Source: Cellvibrio sp. UBA7671 (lineage in GTDB: Bacteria > Pseudomonadota > Gammaproteobacteria > Pseudomonadales > Cellvibrionaceae). From it: a DNA stretch of 64,000 nucleotides. This document shows, one piece after another, positions 35,648-49,047 of the stretch (the first letter of the stretch is position 1; the number at the start of each line of letters is the position of its first letter). The notes below the pieces were generated by a model. That model was given only the letters and a program-made list of their open reading frames with translations. It was not told the origin of the DNA and did no database searches. The DNA lies in assembly GCA_002483145.1 (NCBI GenBank), contig DLHJ01000016.1:62001-126000 (forward strand), in the 5' to 3' direction. The translations under genes were made by a program, and so were the position numbers.

Positions 35648-36322
35648 TTAGCGCGGAAAGAGGGTTTTCACACCCTCTTTGGTGCCGAGCAACAAGACGT
35701 CAGCCGGTTGCGCTGCAAATAAACCGTTGGTCACAACACCAGTGATTTGGTTGATGCGGGTTTCCAGACCGACCGGATCGATAATCTGCAGGTTGTACAC
35801 ATCGAGAATCACATTGCCGTTGTCGGTCACTACACCCTCGCGGTACACCGGTGTGCCGCCGAGTTTGACCAATTCACGCGCGACATAAGAGCGCGCCATA
35901 GGAATGACTTCAACTGGCAACGGGAACTTGCCCAGCACATCCACCCATTTGCTTTCGTCGGCAATGCACACAAATTCTTTGGATACTGCGCGCACGATTT
36001 TTTCGCGCGTCAAGGCAGCGCCGCCGCCTTTAATCAAATGTAAATAAGCGTTGCTTTCATCGGCGCCATCGACATATACCACCAGCTCAGTCACCGAGTT
36101 GCAATCCAGCACGTCTATCCCGAGTTTCTTCAGGCGTGCGGCTGAGGCGTCTGAACTTGCCACAGCACCGGCGAATTGGCTTTTGATCTCGCCCAGATAA
36201 TCGATAAAAAAATTCGCGGTCGAACCAGTGCCGACACCGATAATCGAGTCGCTAAACAGTTTGGGTTTGATGTATTCGATCGCCGCGCGTGCGACAGCTT
36301 GTTTGAGTTGGTCTTGGGTCAT
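35648..36322 (-). CDS. rpiA: Ribose-5-phosphate isomerase A
   Basis: A 224-aa cytoplasmic isomerase of the pentose phosphate pathway, starting at the ATG at 36322. Conserved segments include [47 protein letters not shown] and the ending [17 protein letters not shown]. The divergent neighbour is ilvA, the arrangement found in Pseudomonas. It is 17 nt from the AraC gene stop side, but they probably belong to different units. Confidence 0.97.
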
Positions 36323-36467
36323 GTGATTATTCTCGGGAGCTGGGTCAAAATCTTGCCGCATTATACGGATTTTCGCCGTGCCAGCGGCGGCTAAATTGTT
36401 TACACTGCGGCGACTTTTTCATTCATTGACTAAACAGTCCACCTCACTCGCGAATGCCAGAACTCCC

Positions 36468-37982
36468 ATGCCTGAAACTTACATAAAACGTATCCTCAAT
36501 GCCCGTATCTACGATCTCGCGGTGGAAACCCCGCTCGACGAAGCGCGTCTGCTCTCTGCGCGCACTGGCAATAAAGTCCTGCTTAAGCGCGAAGACTTGC
36601 AACCGGTGTTCTCGTTCAAATTGCGCGGTGCCTACAACAAGCTGTTGCAGCTGACTGAAGACGAGCGCAACCGCGGTGTGATTTGCGCCTCTGCCGGTAA
36701 CCACGCGCAGGGTGTTGCACTTGGCTCCCAGCATTTGGGGATCAAAGCCACTATCGTAATGCCGCGCACGACGCCCGCGATTAAAGTCGATGCAGTAAAA
36801 GCGCGCGGTGCCAAAGTGGTGTTGCATGGCGATAGCTACGACGAAGCCTCTGCCCACGCCAAAAAGCTGGTGGAAGAAAAAGGGCTTACCTATGTGCACC
36901 CTTTTGATGATCCGGATGTGATCGCAGGACAGGGCACGATTGCGATGGAAATCCTGCGCCAGTATCCCGGCAAAATCGACGCGATTTTTATCGCAGTCGG
37001 CGGTGGCGGCTTGGCGGCTGGTATTTCCGCTTATTTGAAATATGTTCGCCCCGAGATCAAGATCATCGCGGTGGAATCGGAAGAGTCTGCCTGCTTGAAA
37101 GCGGCACTGGAAAAGAAAAAGCGCGTGGTACTGCCGCAAGTGGGTATCTTTGCCGACGGCATCGCAGTGGCGCAAATCGGCGAGGAGACTTTCCGCGTGC
37201 TGCGTAAAACGGTCGATGAATGCATCACCGTGACTAACGACGAAATTTGCGCGGGCATCAAAGATATTTTTGAAGATACCCGCTCGATTGCCGAGCCAGC
37301 AGGCGCAACGGGTATCGCGGGGCTGAAAAAATACGTGGCGGAACACGGCATCACCGGCCAAACCCTGATCGCGATTGACTGTGGTGCCAACATCAACTTT
37401 GATCGCCTGCACTACATTAGCGAGCGCACGGAAATCGGCGAGCAGCGCGAAGCGATTCTGGCGGTAACCATTCCCGAGCGCCCTGGTGCCTACAAGGAAT
37501 TCTGCAAAGCCTTAGGCAAGCGCAATATCACCGAATTTAACTATCGCTATGCCGATGCCAAAGACGCCAAGATTTTTGTTGGCGTGCAAGTGGCAGCAGG
37601 TGGCAATGATCGCGCGGATCTGGTCAGTGGGTTGCATTCACAGGGTTATGACCTCGTGGATATGACCGAGAACGAGCTGGCGAAATTGCATATCCGCCAT
37701 TTGGTGGGCGGCCACGCTCCGCAAATTACCGATGAAGTGCTCTACCGCTTTGAGTTCCCCGAGCGTCCGGGTGCGCTCATGACGTTCCTCAATAAAGTTG
37801 CCGGTCGCTGGAATATCTCCCTGTTCCACTATCGCAACCACGGCTCGGCGTCGGCGCGCGTGCTGGTCGGCATGCAAGTGCCGAAAAAAGAATATGCCGA
37901 CCTGCAAGCGTTTTTGAATGACCTGAATTATCCCTATTGGGATGAAACCAAAAACGAAGCCGCCAAGTTCTTTCTGGGTTGA
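36468..37982 (+). CDS. ilvA: Biosynthetic threonine ammonia-lyase
   Basis: A PLP-dependent 504-aa enzyme that deaminates threonine to 2-oxobutyrate for isoleucine synthesis. The PLP lysine lies in FSFKLRGAYNK and the phosphate loop in VGGGGLAAG. Two C-terminal ACT-like domains (about residues 325-500) carry the allosteric sites, as expected for the biosynthetic rather than the catabolic form. The start is the ATG at 36468; the upstream frame extension runs into the rpiA promoter region. A UUCG-loop terminator follows. Confidence 0.96.
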   Translation: MPETYIKRILNARIYDLAVETPLDEARLLSARTGNKVLLKREDLQPVFSFKLRGAYNKLLQLTEDERNRGVICASAGNHAQGVALGSQHLGIKATIVMPRTTPAIKVDAVKARGAKVVLHGDSYDEASAHAKKLVEEKGLTYVHPFDDPDVIAGQGTIAMEILRQYPGKIDAIFIAVGGGGLAAGISAYLKYVRPEIKIIAVESEESACLKAALEKKKRVVLPQVGIFADGIAVAQIGEETFRVLRKTVDECITVTNDEICAGIKDIFEDTRSIAEPAGATGIAGLKKYVAEHGITGQTLIAIDCGANINFDRLHYISERTEIGEQREAILAVTIPERPGAYKEFCKALGKRNITEFNYRYADAKDAKIFVGVQVAAGGNDRADLVSGLHSQGYDLVDMTENELAKLHIRHLVGGHAPQITDEVLYRFEFPERPGALMTFLNKVAGRWNISLFHYRNHGSASARVLVGMQVPKKEYADLQAFLNDLNYPYWDETKNEAAKFFLG

Positions 37983-38017
37983 TCCCGGTTACGGCTTTGT
38001 TATTACTTGTTCGATAA

Positions 38018-38039
38018 AAAGGGCGCTTCGGCGCCCTTT
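38018..38039 (+). terminator. Terminator after ilvA
   Basis: AAAGGGCGC-TTCG-GCGCCCTTT is a 9-bp stem with a stable UUCG tetraloop, followed by TTGTTGTTTT. Confidence 0.88.
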
Positions 38040-38214
38040 GTTGTTTTGGTCCTGAAGCATTTTGCCTATCCACATCTATCCTTAACCCATTCGTCCGAAG
38101 GGTTAATTTATGTTCAGGCACTGGCGTGCCGGTGATTTTGGTGTAATCTGGACAACGTTGTCAGAAAAATCCACATGCCAAATCAATCAACTAAATAGAG
38201 GCAGGAGTTCCATA

Positions 38215-40803
38215 ATGAAATCTGCAGGTCAACACATAGCTGCGCGGTTGGGCGCATTGACGCTCGCGCTGGGGCTTGCCCAGGGCGTCTTCGCCGCTAA
38301 CCTCAGCCAACAACAACTCAATGAATTTGCGGGCAAGGCCCAGCTGCGTTTTGGCGTGGTGAACAATCTGGCGGCCAAGCCGCAAGCGAAATTGACGCTG
38401 ACCAATGACTCTGGAACAGCCTTGCCTGCGGGGCAGGGTGAGTGGAGGATTTATTTTCATTCCGTGCGCAAATTGGACTCGACGTTAATAGACGGTTTGA
38501 GCCTGCGCCATGTGCAAGGTGACCTGCACGAGTTGGCACCGACAGTCGGGTTTAAAGGCCTCGCTGTGGGCGCAAGCTTGTCAGTGCCCTATACCGCCAG
38601 TGCGCATATGGTGAGTTATACCGATTTTATGCCGCGTGCATTTATCGCCCAGCAGGGGGCGGATGCGGTGGTGTTCGCCAATACCGATACTGAAAACCTG
38701 AAAGAATTTGTCGAGCCTTTTACCAAAGCTGAACAGTTGCAGCGCTTCTCGCCCGACCTCTATCCCATCGCCACTGCGGCCACCCGCTATCAGGATAATC
38801 TTGCCGTTAACCAAGCGGCCGCCAAGCTCGATGCCAGCCCCAAAATTATCCCTACACCGGCCGATGTGAAATATCGCAAAGGCACAGCGACACTTGATAG
38901 CAGTTGGCAAATTCGCTACGCCGGGCGTTTAACCAGCGAGGCAAACTATTTTGCCGATCAATTAAAAACAGCTGGTGTAACACTGACCTCTGCTGCTGAC
39001 CATGTCGCAGCAACAGGCAAAGTGATTGAGTTGAAAGTTGATAGCGCAAATGCAACAGCCGAAGCATACACACTTGATATCGCCGCCGACAAAATTACCA
39101 TCATCGGCAGCGATAACGCCGGTGCTTTCTACGGCATCCAAAGCGTGTTGAGTTTGCTGCCCGCGCAAGCAGCGAGCAGCCATGCACTGCCGCTATTGAG
39201 TGCGAAGGATGCACCGCGTTACAGCTGGCGCGGCATGCAATATGACATGGGGCGCAACTTTCATGGCAAGGATGTAACACTGCGTTTGATCGAGCAGATG
39301 GCGCGTTACAAACTCAATAAATTGCATTTGCATTTAACAGAGGATGAGGGCTGGCGCTTGGAAATTCCTGGCCTGCCGGAGCTGACAGACATAGGTGCCA
39401 AGCGCTGTTTTGATCTGACGGAGCAGACTTGTTTACTGACCCAATTGGGTACAGGTCCGCACGCATCCGGTTCGGGTAATGGTTATTACACTACGGCCGA
39501 TTTTATTGAAATTATAAAATTCGCCAGCGCCCGCCATATCGAAGTGGTGCCTGAAATCGATATGCCCGGCCACGCGCGCGCAGCGGTGAAGTCCATGGAA
39601 GCGCGCTACAAAAAATTGCTGAAGGCCGGTAAAAAAGCCGAAGCTGAACAGTATTTGTTATCCGACCCATTGGATAAATCCCAATACATCACCGTGCAAA
39701 GTTACACCGACAACTCGATCAACGTCTGCCTGCCATCGACCTACGCGTTTGTCGATAAAGTCATTTATGAATTACAGCAGATGTATCGCAAAGCGGGCAC
39801 CAAGCTCGTCACTTTCCATATGGGCGGCGATGAAGTGGGCGCAGGTTCCTGGACTGCATCACCTGCCTGTAACGCACTCTTTGCCAAAGGTGAACAGGGT
39901 GTTGCTGGCCCGGCCGATTTGAAGCCTTACTTTGTTAGCAAAGTTTCTGCGATCACATCGGCGCGCGGTTTGGATTTGGCGGGTTGGGAAGATGGTTTGA
40001 TGTATGACCCGGTCAACACCTTTAATCGCAGCCAATTTGCCAACAAACATGTGCTCGCCAATGCCTGGGATAATATCTGGGAGTGGGGTGTTGCTGACCG
40101 CGCCTATCGTTTGGCGAATGCGGGTTATGAACCGATTTTATCGCCCGCGACCCATTTGTATTTCGATCATCCCCATGAAGTGAATCCGGAAGAGCGCGGC
40201 TATTATTGGGCAGCGCGCTACACAGATACTGCAAAAGTATTTGGTTTTATGCCGGATAACCTCTACGCCAATGCCGATAAAGCCCGCAACGGCGCGCCGA
40301 TTGAAAATCTCGAAGCGCTGGTAGGCCGCGCTATGCCCGCACTGGAAAAACCGGAGAATTTGCGCGGTATGCAAGGGCAGGTGTGGACTGAAACTATCCG
40401 CACCGGTGCGCAGATGGAGCAGATGATTTATCCGCGTTTGATTCCACTCGCCGAGCGCGCCTGGCACAAGGCCCCATGGGAAGGTGATAGACCGGATGCC
40501 GCTGCACGCACTGCTGATTGGGCTGCATTCGCGGTGCAATTAAGCGTAAAAGAATTGCCGAAGCTGGCTGCGTTGGGGGGCGATTTTTATCTGCCACCAC
40601 CTGGTGGTGTAGTGGACGACGGCAAATTGTTGGCGAATACGGCGCTGCCTGGTTTGGCAATTGAGTTCAGCATCGACAACGGCTTAAGCTGGAATGCATA
40701 CACGGATGAGCACGCCGTGAGTAAATCTGAAGTCTTGTTACGCACCCGCTTGGGCGAGGGGACTAGCCGTGTAACAACCGCTGAAACGAAGCAAGGTAAT
40801 TAA
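38215..40803 (+). CDS. GH20 beta-N-acetylhexosaminidase (chitobiase)
   Basis: An 862-aa secreted enzyme starting at the ATG at 38215 (AGGAG 7 nt upstream), with a Sec signal peptide ending near GVFA-ANL. The four chitobiase domains can be followed: an N-terminal carbohydrate-binding beta-sandwich, the GH20b domain, the GH20 barrel (RGMQYDMGRNFHG onward) and a C-terminal Ig-like domain. The catalytic pair is in HMGGDEVG (Asp539-Glu540), the same numbering as Serratia chitobiase. It releases GlcNAc from chitobiose in the periplasm. No neighbouring chitin genes are present. Confidence 0.94.
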   Translation: MKSAGQHIAARLGALTLALGLAQGVFAANLSQQQLNEFAGKAQLRFGVVNNLAAKPQAKLTLTNDSGTALPAGQGEWRIYFHSVRKLDSTLIDGLSLRHVQGDLHELAPTVGFKGLAVGASLSVPYTASAHMVSYTDFMPRAFIAQQGADAVVFANTDTENLKEFVEPFTKAEQLQRFSPDLYPIATAATRYQDNLAVNQAAAKLDASPKIIPTPADVKYRKGTATLDSSWQIRYAGRLTSEANYFADQLKTAGVTLTSAADHVAATGKVIELKVDSANATAEAYTLDIAADKITIIGSDNAGAFYGIQSVLSLLPAQAASSHALPLLSAKDAPRYSWRGMQYDMGRNFHGKDVTLRLIEQMARYKLNKLHLHLTEDEGWRLEIPGLPELTDIGAKRCFDLTEQTCLLTQLGTGPHASGSGNGYYTTADFIEIIKFASARHIEVVPEIDMPGHARAAVKSMEARYKKLLKAGKKAEAEQYLLSDPLDKSQYITVQSYTDNSINVCLPSTYAFVDKVIYELQQMYRKAGTKLVTFHMGGDEVGAGSWTASPACNALFAKGEQGVAGPADLKPYFVSKVSAITSARGLDLAGWEDGLMYDPVNTFNRSQFANKHVLANAWDNIWEWGVADRAYRLANAGYEPILSPATHLYFDHPHEVNPEERGYYWAARYTDTAKVFGFMPDNLYANADKARNGAPIENLEALVGRAMPALEKPENLRGMQGQVWTETIRTGAQMEQMIYPRLIPLAERAWHKAPWEGDRPDAAARTADWAAFAVQLSVKELPKLAALGGDFYLPPPGGVVDDGKLLANTALPGLAIEFSIDNGLSWNAYTDEHAVSKSEVLLRTRLGEGTSRVTTAETKQGN

Positions 40804-41086
40804 CACCAGCCAGCGCAAGGACGCGCTACGGCTTCACTCATCACAGCGTAAAAACCCTTCTTTTCCAGTCTTTTTTAACCGCGGCTGCTGGAAAACGCTA
40901 AAAACCTCGGGAAAAACGCATTATTTTTGCGATATTGTGCTGCTTTTTGCGATTTTATCCATCGCTCGTGTTTCATTATTACCATTCCTTGCCTATTATT
41001 TATTCACGTCACAGCCTCGGGCTGTTTTGTGGTTGACGTAAGGGCTGTTGTTTTTTTCAAAAATAATGTTGCGCAAGGTTACAACC

Positions 41087-41209
41087 ATGAAAGTCGATGT
41101 TCTCTCCGTTGTAATTTTTTTGTTTTGCTTGGGAGTATGTGTAACCCTGTTGGATATAGGCGCGTTAGTGTCATTTGCAGAGGCCGCCGTAGAATCCACC
41201 TCTGAGTAG
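41087..41209 (+). CDS. Small single-span membrane peptide (40 aa), hypothetical
   Basis: An ATG at 41087 with AAGG 8 nt upstream opens a 40-codon frame ending TAG, followed after about 30 nt by a strong terminator. The product is MKVDVLSVV..., with one hydrophobic segment of about 24 residues and an acidic C-terminus (AEAAVESTSE), the layout of a bitopic small membrane protein. The preceding 283 nt after the GH20 stop contain no other gene I can support. I know of no homolog. Confidence 0.5.
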   Translation: MKVDVLSVVIFLFCLGVCVTLLDIGALVSFAEAAVESTSE

Positions 41210-41237
41210 TAACAGGCGAGTAAACGGAATTTTCGAC

Positions 41238-41269
41238 AACAACTCCCGCTTCGGCGGGAGTTGTTTTTT
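41238..41269. terminator. Terminator between small ORF and fau
   Basis: CAACTCCCGC-TTCG-GCGGGAGTTG (10-bp stem, UUCG loop) plus a T-run follows the small gene; it also faces the 3' end of fau. Confidence 0.9.
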
Positions 41270-41308
41270 GTGGAGTGAGATTTTCGGCGGGATGCGATGG
41301 AGACAATA

Positions 41309-41947
41309 TTAGGTTTGCGTCAGGATAATTTCTTTATCGGTTGCAATCGCAAACAGCGGTATATCCCAAGTATCAGTGGCAAGTGCATCGACTTGCTGGC
41401 AAGCGTGCGCCAAACCAATCAGCACCGGTTTCCCTGTCAGTTTTTTTTGTTTGAAGGCGAAGGTCGCATCGTAAAAACCGCCTCCCATTCCCAACCTCGC
41501 TCCTGTCCGATCAAATCCAACTAGCGGCATCAAGACTACATCTAGCAATTGCGCCGACATTCTGTGCTGTGAGCGGAAGTCCGGCTCAGGAATACCAAAG
41601 CGATTTTTGGTGAGTGGGGCATCGGGTGTGTATTCCACAAACCACAAATCCTTGCGCTTGTCCGGTCGCAGCACCGGTAAAAAGCAATGCTTTTCCATTT
41701 TCCACAGCTGCCGGATAATCGGCTCAGGGTCGATTTCACCATCATTTGCCATATACAGAGCAACATTGCGCGCGCGCATAAATTGCGGCAGCTTCATCAA
41801 ATGGCGTAGCAGGAACATCGATGCCTGCAGTTGTTGGGTGGGATTAAGGGCATGGCGGCGCGCACGCAATTCATTGCGCAGTTGCTTTTTGGTCAGTGCG
41901 AGATGATTGAGTGGTTGGTCGTATTGGGAATCAAACGAATCGGCCAT
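41309..41947 (-). CDS. fau: 5-formyltetrahydrofolate cyclo-ligase
   Basis: A 212-aa YgfA-family enzyme that converts 5-formyl-THF to 5,10-methenyl-THF using ATP. Conserved segments are KKQLRNELRARRHAL near the N-terminus, VALYMANDGEIDPEPII, and MPLVGFDRTGARLGMGGGFYDATFA. The ATG at 41947 is preferred. It lies directly downstream of 6S RNA, the standard gammaproteobacterial ssrS-ygfA arrangement, and is probably read through from the 6S promoter. Confidence 0.95.
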   Translation of the reverse strand: MADSFDSQYDQPLNHLALTKKQLRNELRARRHALNPTQQLQASMFLLRHLMKLPQFMRARNVALYMANDGEIDPEPIIRQLWKMEKHCFLPVLRPDKRKDLWFVEYTPDAPLTKNRFGIPEPDFRSQHRMSAQLLDVVLMPLVGFDRTGARLGMGGGFYDATFAFKQKKLTGKPVLIGLAHACQQVDALATDTWDIPLFAIATDKEIILTQT

Positions 41948-41979
41948 AAATAGCCTTAAAAAAAACACAGAAGTGAGTT

Positions 41980-42157
41980 AAGAGACCCCGAAATGCCGCA
42001 ACCAAGCTGGCCTTGAACCCATAGGTTCAAGGAGGTAGCACCTGTGGTTTTTAAGGCTTTCCGTCAGGCGGACATGCACACCAAACACAACGAGACACCA
42101 CCAGTTTTGTGGAAATCGGCTCAAGGACTTGTCGGTTTGCAAACATTCCAGGGCGTG
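41980..42157 (-). ncRNA. ssrS: 6S RNA
   Basis: Located between zapA and fau on the same strand, as in E. coli and Pseudomonas. Read on the minus strand, the ends CCCTGGAATG (42153-42144) and CATTTCGGGG (41995-41986) pair over 10 bp to close a long rod-like hairpin. Internal pieces match pseudomonad 6S RNA, notably GAGCCGAT near the 5' side, TGTCCGCCTGACGG, and CCTTGAACCTATGGGTTCAAGG in the 3' arm. TATACT at 42168-42163 serves as the -10. 6S RNA mimics an open promoter and sequesters sigma-70 polymerase in stationary phase. The exact ends are estimated. Confidence 0.87.
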
Positions 42158-42284
42158 GCGCCAGTATAACCCAAGGTCACTGGCCTTCCGCAAATGAAAT
42201 TATGCTTGGCTTAGTTAACCGGTTAGCTGTTAATCGTCTTAAACGGGGCTGGTAAAAAGGTGCAATTTGCGCTTGTGCTCGCTT

Positions 42285-42584
42285 TTAAACCAGATTGGCC
42301 AAACTGCGATCCAGTTTTTCATTCAGACGCAGCAAATCACTGTGGTTGGCTGATCCTCCAGTGCCTGCGCTGCTAGTTTTCGCTTGCAACAATTCATGGC
42401 TCAGGTTGAGCGCAGCCATTACCGCAATGCGCTCAAGGCCGATGACGGCGCCGGTACCGCGGATCGCCTTCATGCGCTCGTCAAGTAATTGCGCCGACTC
42501 CACCAAGGCCTGGCGCTCTTCGCGCGGGCAGGCGACCTGGTATTCTTTATCGAGGATTTTTACAAAAACAGTTTCGTTGCTCAT
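42285..42584 (-). CDS. zapA: Cell division protein ZapA
   Basis: A 99-aa FtsZ-ring-associated protein. The N-terminal domain shows VKILDKEYQVACPREERQALVESAQLLDERM, and the C-terminal half is a coiled coil. ZapA crosslinks FtsZ filaments at midcell. It is 11 nt downstream of a small ZapB-like gene and upstream of 6S RNA, a classical order. Confidence 0.94.
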   Translation of the reverse strand: MSNETVFVKILDKEYQVACPREERQALVESAQLLDERMKAIRGTGAVIGLERIAVMAALNLSHELLQAKTSSAGTGGSANHSDLLRLNEKLDRSLANLV

Positions 42585-43647: not shown

Positions 43648-43665
43648 TTGTTTGCGAGTGCCTCT

Positions 43666-44994
43666 ATGAGAATTTCCAAAACTGAATTTGCCCGCCGCCG
43701 CAAAACTTTGATGGCGCACATGGAGCCCAACTCCATCGCCATAGTTCCCGCCGCGCCTGAGCGTCCGCGCAGCCGCGACACCGAATATCACTACCGTCAG
43801 GACAGCGACTTTTTATATCTGTCAGGTTTTGAAGAACCCAAAGCGGTGCTGGTGTTAATCCCTGGCCGCGAACATGGCGAATATGTTTTGTTTGTGCGCG
43901 AGCGCAACCGCGAACGCGAAATTTGGGACGGTTATCGCGCTGGCCCCGAAGGTGCGTGCAGTGAATTTGAAGCCGACGATGCATTTCCTATCGACGATAT
44001 CGATGAAATTTTACCGGGCTTGCTTGAGGGCAAACAGCGCGTTTATTACTCCATGGGTAAAGACAGCGAATTCGATAAACATGTGATGGACTGGGTCAAC
44101 ACCATCCGCGCCAAAGTGCGCTCAGGTGCAACCCCACCCGGCGAGTTTTTGGATTTAAGTCATTTTTTAAATGATATGCGTTTATTTAAAAGCGCCGCTG
44201 AATTGCGTGTGATGAAAGAAGCCGGCGAAATTTCTGCGCGCGCTCATGTGCGCGCCATGAAAGCGAGTAAAGCGGGCGTGATGGAATACCAACTCGAAGC
44301 CGAAATCCTGCATGAATTCCAAATGAGCGGCGCGCGTTTTCCCGCGTATAACACGATTGTTGGCGGCGGAAAAAATGGCTGCATTTTGCATTACATCGAA
44401 AATTCTGCGCCGCTCAAAAATGGTGATCTGGTGTTGATCGATGCGGGATGCGAACTGGATTATTACGCCGCTGACATCACCCGCACCTTTCCCGTCAGCG
44501 GAAAATTTTCTCCTGAACAAAAAGCCCTCTACGAAATTTGTTTGCAAGCCCAGCTCGAAGCCATCGCTGAATGTAAGCCAGGTAAGCATTGGAATGATCC
44601 TCACGAAGCCACAGTGCGCGTCATCACTGAAGGTTTGGTAAAAATTGGTTTGCTTGAAGGTGACGTAAGCGAATTAATTAAAAGTGAAGCTTACAAAGAA
44701 TTTTATATGCATCGCGCCGGTCACTGGCTGGGAATGGACGTGCACGATGTCGGCGATTATAAAGTCGGTGGTGAATGGCGTGTGCTCGAACCGGGTATGG
44801 TGATGACTGTTGAACCGGGTATTTATGTTGCTCCCGACAATGAGCGCGTCGCCAAAAAATGGCGCGGCATTGGCATCCGCATCGAAGACGATGTGGTTAT
44901 CACCAAAGACGGCAACGAAGTGCTTACTAAAGACGTACCAAAAACTGTTGTGGAAATCGAAGCCTTGATGGCAGGGACTTATGCGGGCGCTTGA
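43666..44994 (+). CDS. pepP: Xaa-Pro aminopeptidase
   Basis: A cytosolic metallopeptidase of 442 aa (ATG at 43666) that releases an N-terminal residue next to proline. The N-terminal domain starts ISKTEFARRRKTLMAHM. The pita-bread catalytic domain shows all metal ligands: Asp in LIDAGCELD, Asp in YYAADITRTFPVSG, His in HRAGHWLGMDVHD, Glu in VEPGIYV and Glu in IRIEDDVVI. It lies between ygfB and a glycosyltransferase whose start overlaps its last 14 nt. Confidence 0.96.
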   Translation: MRISKTEFARRRKTLMAHMEPNSIAIVPAAPERPRSRDTEYHYRQDSDFLYLSGFEEPKAVLVLIPGREHGEYVLFVRERNREREIWDGYRAGPEGACSEFEADDAFPIDDIDEILPGLLEGKQRVYYSMGKDSEFDKHVMDWVNTIRAKVRSGATPPGEFLDLSHFLNDMRLFKSAAELRVMKEAGEISARAHVRAMKASKAGVMEYQLEAEILHEFQMSGARFPAYNTIVGGGKNGCILHYIENSAPLKNGDLVLIDAGCELDYYAADITRTFPVSGKFSPEQKALYEICLQAQLEAIAECKPGKHWNDPHEATVRVITEGLVKIGLLEGDVSELIKSEAYKEFYMHRAGHWLGMDVHDVGDYKVGGEWRVLEPGMVMTVEPGIYVAPDNERVAKKWRGIGIRIEDDVVITKDGNEVLTKDVPKTVVEIEALMAGTYAGA

Positions 44995-46507
44995 TAGTAA
45001 TGCAGATTTTTATCAAGTAAATACATGGAGAGCTGCTCCCTGGTTAGTTGATGCATTTTGTATCGGCGGATTAGTCATTTCGGCACTAATTGCATTACTT
45101 TGGAATTATCAAGGCCTACCCATGCAGTATTGGGATGAAAGCCGCAATGCAAATAACGCGTTGGAAATGGCGCTCGGCTCCGGTTGGCTTGTGCCAACCT
45201 ACGAAGGCGTTCCTGATCATTGGAATACCAAACCGCCGCTACTAATTTGGCTGATTGCCGGCTTAATGAAACTGGATTTGCCGCCCTTATTGGCTTTGCG
45301 CCTGCCCTCCGCATTGGCCGCCGCTGCAACTCTGATTATGGTTTGGGCCGCTGTACGTTTTGGTTTACGCGATAGATTGGCTGCGCTAATCGCTGCAGCG
45401 CTCTTGCTAAGCTCCAAGGGTTACACGGGCATTCACGGTGCTCACACAGGTGACTTTGATACACTTCTCGCGTTATTTACGACAGGGTATGTGCTGAGCG
45501 TTTGGCAAGCGTTGGCACAATCAGGGCGACAAAAAATAGTCTGGATGTTGAGCACGGGAATTTTTCTGGTATTGGCGGTGATGACCAAAGGTCCAGCAGG
45601 CTTTTTTGGTGTAGTAGGCCTGTGTTTATTTTTACTCCTAACTGGTCAGGTGCTAAATGTTATTAATGATTGGCGCTGGTGGTTAGTAGCAATATTTTCC
45701 TGCTTAATTTGCGCAAGTTATTACATCGTTCGTGAAAGCTACGATGCAGGTTATTTGCAGGCAGTGTGGATGAATGAGCTGGGTGGCCGCTACAGCGAAA
45801 CGAATGAATCACACTACAAAGGTACCTGGTTTTATCTGCGTGAACTGCTTAAGCAGTGGGTACCCGGGTGCTTGTTTTTATTGTTACTTGGTTATTCACT
45901 GTTGGGCGCGGATGTCGCGCGCAAACGTCTTGCGCAGATAACCTTTTTATCGGGCGCAGGAATTTTAATTCTACTTACCACCGCCAAAACGCAGCTTCAT
46001 TGGTATCTAATTCCGGTGATTCCTTTACTGTGCATAGCTGCCGCTATCGCTTTGGTTGACGCTATAAAAAAAGGTATGCAAGTTCCTATTAATTACTGGC
46101 GAGCATTTCTTGTTATGTTTATTGCTTTACCTGTGATTATTTCTGTTTTTAGGAATGCAATAAGTTTGCCCGCAAAATCAAAAGATAAAACCCATATCAG
46201 TCAATACGGTATTCTATTTAATCATTTGCACACCGCTGGGCGAATGTCCAATCGCATAATTGTTCTCGATGACGGGGCGGACAATACAGCAGGCTTCACT
46301 GACTACAATCCGGAACTCAAGTTCTATGCTCAGCTTGAAAAACAAAAGGGAATTGATGTTCAGGTTGCCAGACTCGCTGATGCCAATTTGGTAAATGGGC
46401 TAGTCGCAACCTGTGATTATAAAAATATGGTAACAGTGCGCCAGTTAATTACCGCGCCTTTAGTTGAGAGCGCTGTGTGTGTGGCAGGTTATAAGGATCG
46501 GCAATGA
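44981..46507 (+). CDS. ArnT-like glycosyltransferase (GT39/GT83 family) membrane protein
   Basis: A 508-aa protein with about ten to twelve membrane helices. The first periplasmic loop carries the catalytic acidic motif (QYWDESRNANNALEMA) and the KPPLLIWL segment typical of ArnT and related polyprenyl-phosphate-sugar transferases. These enzymes add a sugar from a lipid carrier to lipid A, a protein or another glycan outside the inner membrane. It starts inside pepP (14-nt overlap) and overlaps the UbiH-UbiI gene by 4 nt, so it is translationally coupled. Its place inside the pepP-ubiH operon is unusual. The acceptor is unknown. Confidence 0.87.
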   Translation: MRALDSNADFYQVNTWRAAPWLVDAFCIGGLVISALIALLWNYQGLPMQYWDESRNANNALEMALGSGWLVPTYEGVPDHWNTKPPLLIWLIAGLMKLDLPPLLALRLPSALAAAATLIMVWAAVRFGLRDRLAALIAAALLLSSKGYTGIHGAHTGDFDTLLALFTTGYVLSVWQALAQSGRQKIVWMLSTGIFLVLAVMTKGPAGFFGVVGLCLFLLLTGQVLNVINDWRWWLVAIFSCLICASYYIVRESYDAGYLQAVWMNELGGRYSETNESHYKGTWFYLRELLKQWVPGCLFLLLLGYSLLGADVARKRLAQITFLSGAGILILLTTAKTQLHWYLIPVIPLLCIAAAIALVDAIKKGMQVPINYWRAFLVMFIALPVIISVFRNAISLPAKSKDKTHISQYGILFNHLHTAGRMSNRIIVLDDGADNTAGFTDYNPELKFYAQLEKQKGIDVQVARLADANLVNGLVATCDYKNMVTVRQLITAPLVESAVCVAGYKDRQ

Positions 46508-49047
46508 ACGTTGTAATCCAAAAAGATACTTTTGATATCGTCATTATTGGAGGCGGCATGGTGGGCGCTAGTCTCGCCAGTTTGCTTTCTGCCAGTCAAC
46601 CACAATTGCGTATTGCGTTGATTGAAGCGCAGGCGTTCGCGCGTGCGGATGAAATGCATTTCCAACCGAGTTTTGACGCGCGCTCGACAGCGCTCGCATA
46701 CGGCACTGTTGCGATTTTGCGCGAGTTGGGTTTGTGGGATTTATTGCAGCAACACATAACGCCTATTGCGCAAGTGCATGTATCTGATCGTGGGCATTTT
46801 CTGGGCGGTGTGATCGATGCAAAAGAAAATAATCTCGATGCTGTAGGTTATGTGGTTGAAAATGCCTGGTTGGGAAAGGTTCTGCTCGAACATGTACAAG
46901 CACAACATAATATTCAATGTTTTGCTTCATCTACAGTAACTGCGTTAACCCCACAACAAGATTGTGCATTGTTGAATGTTAAAACTAACGCGCAAGAATT
47001 CTTAATAAAAACATCACTTGCTGTGATCGCCGATGGTGGCGATTCACCCTTGCGTAAATCGCTCGGCATAGGTACGCAAGTGCGCGCTTATGGTCAAACC
47101 GCTATCATTACCAATGTCGAATTTTCCGAGCCACATCATGGCGTTGCTTACGAGCGTTTTACAGCCGATGGCCCAGTTGCGCTTTTGCCCTTAGGTGAAT
47201 CCAATAGTGCACAGCAATCTGCATTAGTTTGGACTTTACCTGCGGCGCAAGCCGATCAAATTCTGGCACTAAATGATGCCGATTTTCTTATACAGTTGCA
47301 GGAGCGATTTGGTTTTCGTGTGGGGCGGTTTAATCGTGTTGCCAAACGTTTTTCCTATCCATTGCAGCTGGTGTTGGCTGAAGAGCAAATTCGTTCGCAT
47401 TTGGTGTTGCTCGGCAACGCTGCACATTTTTTACATCCGGTGGCGGGGCAGGGGTTTAATCTCGCGTTGCGCGATTGCGTCTGTTTGGTAGAAACCCTGC
47501 GCGAGGCAATTGCGGAAAAGAAATCACCCGGCGATTTGACGGTATTGCAATCCTATCTCCACAAGCAATCGCTTGATCAGCAAATTACGATTGAATTTAG
47601 CGATAAATTAGTGCGGCTGTTTTCCAGCGATCAGTTGCCTCTGATCGCCATGCGTCATCTAGGCTTATTAAGCCTCGAATCTATTCCTCTCATTAAAAAC
47701 CAATTTATCGCGCAGACCATGGGTACTGCTGGTCGCCAATTTCGTTGGAAGTTGGATGAAGTGAATTCTGCATCAGTCGGCGATGAAGAAATTATTGATT
47801 CTTGCTTGCGCGGGAGTGACGACGAGTCGGCAAATAATTCAGAGTTTGATGTAATTATTGTCGGTGCCGGTTTGGTTGGTGCGTCGCTCGCCTGTACGAT
47901 TGCACAAACTGATGCAGCTCAGAACTTGCGTATTGCCGTAATCGAAGCTGGCAGTGATGTACAACATTTTAGCGGCGATCATTTTGATCCGCGTGTAGTT
48001 GCACTTACGCATGCATCGCAAAAATTATTAGCAGATATCGGCTGCTGGGATGACATAGTCGCGCAACGTGTCTGTGCCTATCGCGAAATGAAAGTCTGGG
48101 ACGGTGAAGGCACCGCTGCGATTGAGTTTGATTGTGCCGAGGTACATCAAAGCCATCTCGGGCATATCATCGAAAACTCGGTGATCGTCAATCAATTGCG
48201 TGTGCGTATGGCGCAGCATAACAATATTTTCCTGATCCAACCGGTTGCCGTTGCGCAAGTTATTCCTGCACAAGCCGAGTTTCCTCGCGTGCGTGTGCAA
48301 TTATCCAACGGTAACGAAATTACAGCTCCGCTATTAATTGCCGCCGATGGAGCGCAATCTAAAGTACGCGAACTTACAGAATTTTCTACGCGCGAGTGGG
48401 AGTATGGCCAGCAGGCGATTATCACTACGGTACGCACTGAGCGGCCGCACGAATTTACCGCGTGGCAACGCTTTATGCACACCGGGCCGCTGGCATTTTT
48501 ACCGCTGCAACATAATGGCGATGCACATAGTTGTTCGATCGTCTGGTCAGCAGAAGATGATTTGGCCTCAGAATTAATAGCGTTGAATGATGAAGATTTC
48601 TGTGCGCGTTTAACCTCCGCATTTGAGGCGCGCCTTGGTCGCGTTATCGCTTGCGATAAACGCTATGCAATCCCTTTGCGCCAGCGTCATGCTACTAGTT
48701 ATATCCAGCCCGGTATCGCATTGGTTGGCGATGCGGCACACAACATTCATCCGCTCGCAGGGCAGGGTGTCAATTTAGGTTTGCTCGACGTGATCGCGCT
48801 TGCGCAAGAAATCGAACGAGCCCTCACGCGCGCTATTCCGCTTGCGGACTATTCAATCCTGCGCCGTTACCAGCGCCAGCGTCTCGCCAGTAATCTGGGC
48901 ATGATGTCGGCAATGGAGGGCTTCAAGCGTTTGTTTGGCAATCGCACTCTGGCCGTAAATTGGTTGCGCAATACTGGCATGCGCCAACTAAACTCTGTAT
49001 CAGCAATTAAAAAAATCATTATCAATACTGCACTGGGTGTTTCTTGA
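46504..49047 (+). CDS. ubiH-ubiI: Fused UbiH-UbiI ubiquinone biosynthesis monooxygenase
   Basis: One 847-aa frame encodes two complete class A flavin monooxygenases. The N-terminal half (about residues 8-415) is UbiH-like: IIGGGMVGASLASLL for FAD, the internal DG motif, and LLGNAAHFLHPVAGQGFNLA, with the GN variant typical of UbiH. After a linker of about 25 residues, the C-terminal half (about 448-847) is UbiI/VisC-like: VIIVGAGLVGASLA, ADGAQSKVRE and LVGDAAHNIHPLAGQG. UbiH and UbiI hydroxylate the ubiquinone ring. In E. coli they are adjacent separate genes after pepP, so this is a fusion of neighbours, with no frameshift needed. Confidence 0.9.
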   Translation: MNVVIQKDTFDIVIIGGGMVGASLASLLSASQPQLRIALIEAQAFARADEMHFQPSFDARSTALAYGTVAILRELGLWDLLQQHITPIAQVHVSDRGHFLGGVIDAKENNLDAVGYVVENAWLGKVLLEHVQAQHNIQCFASSTVTALTPQQDCALLNVKTNAQEFLIKTSLAVIADGGDSPLRKSLGIGTQVRAYGQTAIITNVEFSEPHHGVAYERFTADGPVALLPLGESNSAQQSALVWTLPAAQADQILALNDADFLIQLQERFGFRVGRFNRVAKRFSYPLQLVLAEEQIRSHLVLLGNAAHFLHPVAGQGFNLALRDCVCLVETLREAIAEKKSPGDLTVLQSYLHKQSLDQQITIEFSDKLVRLFSSDQLPLIAMRHLGLLSLESIPLIKNQFIAQTMGTAGRQFRWKLDEVNSASVGDEEIIDSCLRGSDDESANNSEFDVIIVGAGLVGASLACTIAQTDAAQNLRIAVIEAGSDVQHFSGDHFDPRVVALTHASQKLLADIGCWDDIVAQRVCAYREMKVWDGEGTAAIEFDCAEVHQSHLGHIIENSVIVNQLRVRMAQHNNIFLIQPVAVAQVIPAQAEFPRVRVQLSNGNEITAPLLIAADGAQSKVRELTEFSTREWEYGQQAIITTVRTERPHEFTAWQRFMHTGPLAFLPLQHNGDAHSCSIVWSAEDDLASELIALNDEDFCARLTSAFEARLGRVIACDKRYAIPLRQRHATSYIQPGIALVGDAAHNIHPLAGQGVNLGLLDVIALAQEIERALTRAIPLADYSILRRYQRQRLASNLGMMSAMEGFKRLFGNRTLAVNWLRNTGMRQLNSVSAIKKIIINTALGVS
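47798..47817. repeat. REP-like hairpin inside the UbiH-UbiI linker
   Basis: ATTCTTGC-TTGC-GCGGGAGT folds into an 8-bp stem (three G-U pairs in RNA) with a 4-nt loop. It is followed by GACGACG, like widespread intergenic repeats of the form ATTCxxGCTTxCGCGGGAATGACG. It encodes the linker residues SCLRGSDD. No second copy was seen in the window. Confidence 0.4.

Follow-up and report, generated by a model that had tools for sequence, protein, structure and literature searches.

The fused gene and its two domains

The window analysed here is a stretch of 64,000 nucleotides (nt) from Cellvibrio sp. UBA7671 (GenBank assembly GCA_002483145.1, contig DLHJ01000016.1, positions 62,001 to 126,000 of the forward strand). 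At 46504-49047 of its forward strand lies a single open frame of 847 codons, which starts with ATG, contains no internal stop and encodes a UbiH together with a UbiI-type hydroxylase. UbiH and UbiI are normally two separate proteins of ubiquinone synthesis. In the fused protein the UbiH domain occupies residues 1-411 (46504-47736) and is followed by an interdomain linker, residues 412-444 (47737-47835), and by the UbiI-type domain, residues 445-847 (47836-49044). Each half possesses its own glycine motif for the binding of flavin adenine dinucleotide and its own conserved GN or GD motif. The initial annotation had proposed one uninterrupted frame of 847 amino acids holding both hydroxylases, and this is borne out by the open frame, by the profile matches of each half and by one-frame homologues in 11 other Cellvibrio genomes; the gene is confirmed as a single coding unit for a fused UbiH-UbiI pair. 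A frameshift or stop near 47760-47840, which the initial annotation had named as a refuting result, is not there, since the frame is open and the same architecture occurs in 12 genomes. Both domains are under strong purifying selection, with pooled pairwise ratios of nonsynonymous to synonymous substitutions (dN/dS) of 0.070 each among six close species and 0.09 among twelve, ratios that are rough at a dS above 1.

Judged from profiles, the nearest solved chain and a tree, the first half is a UbiH of the type that hydroxylates C1. Residues 1-422, scanned alone, passed the cut-offs of two UbiH equivalog models, TIGR01984 (414.5 vs. 392.2 bits) and NF004356 (452.9 vs. 384). The nearest solved chain by sequence is 7mwa (UbiH), and a comparison by fold ranked 4k22 and 7mwa at the top. 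The second half is probably a UbiI-type enzyme acting in C5 hydroxylation. Residues 446-847, scanned alone, passed TIGR01988, which covers the UbiH/UbiF/VisC/COQ6 subfamily (422.4 vs. 224.65), and the nearest solved chains by sequence are 4n9x and 4k22, both VisC/UbiI. Placing the two halves in a tree had been proposed as a check. In the resulting tree, built from 41 proteins, the 20 first-gene rows, among them the window's half and UbiH from E. coli, all stand on one side with a support of 100 in the Shimodaira-Hasegawa-like approximate likelihood ratio test (SH-aLRT), and the second half groups with the second genes that follow ubiH, with E. coli UbiF nearby.

The motifs of the UbiH half are GGGMVG (46549-46566) and GNAAHFLHPVAGQGFN (GNAA at 47413-47424), those of the UbiI-type half are GAGLVG (47863-47880) and GDAAHNIHPLAGQGVN (GDAA at 48727-48738), the GD being as in UbiI and UbiF. 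The initial annotation was right about a motif set in each half, with GN in the first and GD in the second, but not in treating GN as a peculiar variant: UbiH from E. coli likewise has GN and not GD (GNAAQTLHPIAGQGFN), and GN as an oddity of the fused protein was therefore rejected.

Upstream on the same strand, a ygfB-like gene (UPF0149, PF03695; 43033-43647) is the first member of a conserved ygfB-pepP-ubiH-ubiI block that has the same order in E. coli, and it is followed by pepP, encoding an Xaa-Pro aminopeptidase (43648-44994; NF008131, 538.9 vs. a cut-off of 465). Between pepP and the fused gene lies a gene for a glycosyltransferase-like membrane protein (PMT_2, PF13231; 44981-46507) that overlaps both neighbors; its TGA shares bases with the start codon of the fused gene. 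The upstream side is visible at 18 further loci of the genus, and of these only G009 has this PMT-like gene (63% identity), which suggests an insertion or a loss. Farther upstream, at 35648-42584, there are rpiA-, ilvA-, fau- and zapA-like genes, named by eye from their translations, and a 6S RNA (41981-42157), arranged head to head with ygfB-pepP as is usual in gammaproteobacteria. Less usual is a large hexosaminidase-like frame (38110-40803) that separates ilvA from fau.

Distribution and origin of the fusion

In E. coli, ubiH (b2907) and ubiI/visC (b2906) are separate and adjacent genes after pepP, just as the initial annotation had stated. Gene order after ygfB and pepP, the two enzymes and their GN and GD motifs are common to E. 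coli and Cellvibrio. In contrast, E. coli has two genes whose coding regions are 22 nt apart, whereas the fused Cellvibrio gene is a continuous frame that includes about 33 linker residues. An E. coli mutant in ubiI alone is reported to show no growth phenotype in M9 succinate, and a ubiIK mutant is used in that work (PMC10470549).

The genus search comprised 21 genomes, including the window's own, with the junctions read from the DNA; 20 genomes gave a match and one (G016) did not. A one-frame, stop-free fusion is present in 12 of these 20 (G000, which is the window's own, G001, G002, G004, G005, G006, G007, G009, G014, G015, G017 and G019). Four of the fused genomes are single contigs (G001, G004, G007 and G014) and one consists of two contigs (G006), while the copy from G017 lacks its 5' end. 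The fused copy from G015 lies on a 4.3-kb contig and possibly strayed in from another species, as its bin has 6% contamination and contains an unfused pair as well. This copy (L007, on contig G015:C124) appears to be a mosaic, as its UbiH half is 90% like that of the window, whereas its UbiI half is only 79% like it and seems to be nearer to G014. Either the fused gene has recombined internally or the contig may be chimaeric. G010 has a gap of Ns exactly in the linker and was not scored. The fused genes diverge down to 67% identity, and there is no reversal among the 12.

Separate genes were found in seven genomes (G003, G008, G011, G012, G013, G018, where ubiH is cut at a contig end, and G020) and at the second locus of G015 (G015:C1). 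These unfused genes are orthologous to the window's, with 52-67% identity per half. The order ygfB-pepP-ubiH-ubiI is kept in all seven of the eight loci with a visible upstream side, and an mgtC-like gene follows in seven of the eight. They differ from the fused gene in that the two frames either overlap or have another gene between them: in G008, G013 and G018 the ubiH stop and the ubiI start overlap in an ATGA, in G003 the ubiI ATG lies inside the end of ubiH, and in G011, G012, G015:C1 and G020 (L059, L060, L063 and L067) the domain matches are 354-405 nt apart, with a gene of 97-98 codons in between, assigned to DUF3144 by a Pfam run on the G012 copy only. DUF3144 may be ubiquinone-related and may merit attention. 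The genome of the window has a DUF3144 gene elsewhere (C15:389891-390118).

At higher ranks we searched 144 genomes of the family, 390 of the order, 369 of the class and 398 of the phylum, sets that partly overlap. No one-frame fusion from outside the genus occurs among the matches listed for any of the four ranks, these being the best rows for family and order, matches with E < 1e-100 for the class and with E < 1e-80 for the phylum, so that rare or divergent fusions could escape. Within the family, the listed matches from other genera that extend over both halves all have one stop or more, and none of 20 junctions outside the genus that were read from the DNA is fused. A survey of 107 loci (80 named ones out of at least 384 confirmed matches, 25 from the family and order searches and two from E. 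coli) gave 104 scorable cases, with two loci holding one gene only (L146 and L168) and E. coli ubiF (L177) left unscored. Only Cellvibrio sp. 79 (L096) and Cellvibrio sp. OA-2007 (L099) are fused, and both are probably already among the 12. The placement of the fusion in the Cellvibrionaceae fits these named loci, but a spread across the family at large was not found: the family search, the junctions and the scored loci reject a widespread occurrence and leave one clade of one genus.

Long frames at unfused pairs were considered as further candidates and rejected. For frames of 925-940 amino acids in G012, G015:C1 and G020, of 945 in G112 and of 911 in G138, the DNA has separate frames in five of five cases, and none of twelve more loci from the order, class and phylum (686-1012 amino acids; L183-L189 and L191-L195) is fused. 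In five members of the order (G307, G202, G384, G421 and G487; L188, L189, L193, L194 and L195) the matches to the separate ubiH and ubiI are spaced about 500 nt apart, which may leave room for a further small gene. Matches were also found in 130 plasmid records, all below 60% identity; one of the five best is annotated as separate genes.

In a tree of the joined UbiH and UbiI parts with 31 rows, the 12 fused genes and G010 form one clade (support 100/99). Only one change of state is needed on this tree without G010, and two if G010 is counted as a different group. The branch joining the fused clade to the nearest unfused clade has a lower support (84/67), and G003 forms a long branch. The tree thus makes it most likely that the fusion arose once, within Cellvibrio. 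It probably arose from closely packed genes, a packed ancestor being what we infer. This is a real and recurrent gene fusion of two known enzymes, found in one Cellvibrio clade and probably of single origin.

Linker and palindromic repeat

The linker is predicted to be disordered. In an AlphaFold2 model from an alignment of 28 rows, two folded domains are present (mean predicted local distance difference test score, pLDDT, of 82.0; predicted template modelling score, pTM, of 0.51), and linker residues 412-444 have a pLDDT below 50. For residues 418-442, dN/dS is 0.65 in the six close species and 0.70 in the twelve. The fused genes have a UbiH tail of the type GTAGRxxxW, after which 20-25 residues with little shared sequence lead up to the UbiI domain. 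In all 12 fused genes the two domain matches are separated by 84-102 nt, a length that is always divisible by three and free of in-frame stops, and each of these stretches stays open in 8-42% of shuffles when its bases are shuffled as mononucleotides. The reading frame of the linker is kept despite the drift of its sequence. The start of the second gene is also gone from its usual place: seven of seven separate ubiI genes tested have an ATG 4-6 codons before the domain match, and at this position there is no ATG in any of the 12 fused genes.

Part of the window's linker is formed, in frame, by a copy of a dispersed palindromic repeat (47797-47820, forward strand; pattern GATTCCCGCNNNNGCGGGAATGAC, three mismatches). 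With up to three mismatches, the pattern has 41 matches in the window's genome vs. none for the reversed control pattern; the commonest form of the repeat is GATACCCGCGTTCGCGGGTATGAC, and besides the linker it is found at 40 other places of this genome. Many copies are inverted pairs about 30-70 bases apart (for instance C15:296644 and 296686, or C12:22012 and 22053). Copies are also present in the linkers of G004, G019 and G007, with one, one and three mismatches, and G010 retains a remnant beside its assembly gap. An RNA hairpin is predicted for all four linker copies, that of the window with G-U pairs. Since only the sub-clade of the window holds a linker copy and the best fit in the other eight fused genes has 9-11 mismatches, the repeat is probably younger than the fusion and tolerated in frame.

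A probable single protein, its alternatives and the Ubi complex

We consider it likely that the fused gene yields one bifunctional protein of single origin, in which a UbiH domain for C1 and a UbiI-type domain for C5 are joined by a linker of about 33 residues and would be delivered to the Ubi complex at a ratio of 1:1. The parts of this explanation that we infer are that one polypeptide is produced, that it has the two activities, that it belongs to the Ubi complex and that the tether has an effect.

Several observations weigh against this explanation, and they concern the identity of the second half, the arrangement of the two halves and the translation of the gene. The second half stays below the cut-offs of the UbiI equivalog models NF006461 (351.9 vs. 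633) and NF005949 (338.9 vs. 620), which is why we call it UbiI-type and not a proven UbiI. The best equivalog, NF004318, which is labelled methyl-methoxy-benzoquinol hydroxylase, is below its cut-off as well (440.9 vs. 653). Moreover, in the tree of 41 proteins UbiF from E. coli, on a long branch, stands beside ten second genes including the window's half (support 88). As E. coli UbiF falls among the second genes, the tree alone does not separate UbiI from UbiF. Other features favor a UbiI assignment over UbiF. The UbiI-type half directly follows ubiH within the ygfB-pepP-ubiH block, which in the window is interrupted by the PMT-like gene; a Coq7 gene over the cut-off is present in the same genome; and a search of this genome at E ≤ 0.001 found no other UbiH-type hydroxylase, the only further match covering 45 residues (E = 6.8e-4). 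E. coli has UbiF, whereas the Cellvibrio genome has Coq7, which we take to be a candidate for the C6 step, and no UbiF-like gene was found at E ≤ 0.001. With respect to the arrangement of the halves, the AlphaFold2 model has no defined contact between them, and their relative placing is not predicted because of the pTM of 0.51 and the low pLDDT of the linker. The pLDDT is also low at residues 306-313 and 745-752, the stretches of the GN and GD motifs, which were modelled without cofactor.

The kept frame of the linker fits one polypeptide and shows that UbiI must be translated, but it does not show that the fusion is advantageous, because UbiI has no start of its own and any stop in the linker would destroy it. 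Once this start was gone, the fusion could be a neutral ratchet. A real one-protein fusion that is selectively neutral, in which a stop was lost, the second start decayed and the state became locked in, is a serious possibility, if somewhat short of an even chance; it denies only the benefit and is compatible with the bifunctional protein proposed above. Its single origin and the linker sequence that is nearly free to change are in line with neutrality, and so is the finding of separate genes in all scorable relatives from outside the clade with a junction read from the DNA, as are the ATGA overlaps in several relatives, where separate genes may already be coupled. The lack of any reversal among 12 fused genes that diverge down to 67% identity speaks for a benefit, although lock-in explains it too. 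A published AlphaFold2 model of the Ubi complex, described in PMC10863985, groups UbiE, UbiG, UbiH and UbiI into one heterotetramer, which makes an effect of the fusion plausible.

It is unlikely that two proteins are still made, whether because translation also starts internally, close to the linker, or because the exposed linker is cleaved. Such cleavage would be aided by the predicted disorder, which would leave the linker open to proteases, and start-type codons do exist: in-frame GTG, TTG or ATG codons are found in the linkers of some species, and in five species a GTG or TTG lies between one codon before and four codons into the UbiI match. These are a GTG one codon ahead of the match in G009 (upstream pairing energy -2.4) and a GTG or TTG 2-4 codons inside it in G001, G006, G007 and G017. 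G007 additionally has an in-frame ATG in its linker (-4.9). The linker of the window contains an in-frame TTG and GTG, but its candidates, with upstream pairing energies of -0.9, -3.6 and -0.6, are within the background, whose 5% and 25% quantiles are -5.9 and -3.3. The comparison is weak and not decisive, as some true ubiI starts also pair weakly (0.4 in G012, 0.1 in G020). Besides, no internal start is common to all 12 fused genes, and the linker proper is free of such codons in four of them (G005, G015b, G014 and G006). The need for an in-frame linker is also expected of one product. There is a negligible chance that two normal genes merely look fused because a stop or frameshift between them was lost through an error of assembly or sequencing, since 12 independent genomes, four of them single contigs, have the same architecture with different linkers, even though the linker of G010 does hold an assembly gap.

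For the single bifunctional protein, the following course of events can be proposed. In a Cellvibrio ancestor, ubiH probably lost its stop and a closely packed ubiI its start, which would have led to the fusion. With UbiI lacking its usual start codon, both enzymes would be made at 1:1, provided that no second product is made, and would be delivered together to the Ubi complex. Other putative parts of the O2-dependent pathway are present in the same genome, as judged from matches over the cut-offs: besides Coq7 these are UbiG (279.3 bits), a UbiK-family protein (BMFP; 61.6 bits) and two genes with an SCP2 domain, the domain of UbiJ. According to PMC10863985, the lipid is carried by UbiJ along the route UbiI, UbiG, UbiH, UbiE, UbiF and UbiG. 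In the fused protein the lipid would accordingly pass from the UbiI domain to the UbiH domain, presumably carried by UbiJ and with UbiG acting in between. The tether would keep the two sites within the reach of the linker and would form no tunnel. With a UbiG step separating the two hydroxylations, the most likely role of the tether is in co-assembly and in setting the ratio, not in passing the lipid directly between the two sites. The channelling of the quinone intermediate that the initial annotation had considered is, as a direct transfer from UbiI to UbiH, doubtful for the same reason, and also in view of the AlphaFold2 model without a confident placing of the halves. A more far-reaching idea, which we put forward only tentatively, is that the fusion is a natural obligate cross-link in the Ubi complex: it would hold equal amounts of UbiH and UbiI within a reach of about 33 residues, their co-delivery would reduce the leakage of reactive intermediates, and in the sub-clade of the window the tether would partly derive from a mobile palindromic repeat.

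The initial annotation knew of no description of the fusion, and we found no description of a natural UbiH-UbiI fusion in the open-licence literature, including the accessible parts of PMC5069965, PMC8854274, PMC11707229 and PMC10626278. The engineered UbiG-UbiE fusion of Rhodobacter sphaeroides (Lu et al. 2015, as reported in PMC8854274) likewise joins two enzymes of the ubiquinone pathway, but it is man-made and consists of methyltransferases, whereas the Cellvibrio fusion is natural and consists of hydroxylases. UbiL and UbiM, which PMC5069965 describes as single flavin hydroxylases with a relaxed choice of position, are also one gene product for more than one ring hydroxylation, but with one active site instead of two in tandem. 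For the second half of the fused protein the UbiM model gives 251.6, against the 351.9 and 338.9 of the UbiI-type models.

With fused and unfused relatives in one genus, Cellvibrio offers a clean case of a fusion from closely packed genes. Even the stoichiometry of the Ubi complex is unknown according to a review (PMC8854274). A natural 1:1 tether of two ring hydroxylases would provide a fixed ratio and a distance restraint for any model of this complex, such as the published UbiE-K model named in PMC10863985 (ma-sysbio-bei-28); 33 residues, fully stretched, would span about 110 angstrom. With the fused gene, furthermore, only one protein would have to be tagged and purified, and a comparison of split and fused versions could address whether the proximity of the two enzymes matters. 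Its value would lie mainly in giving access to how the Ubi complex is built.

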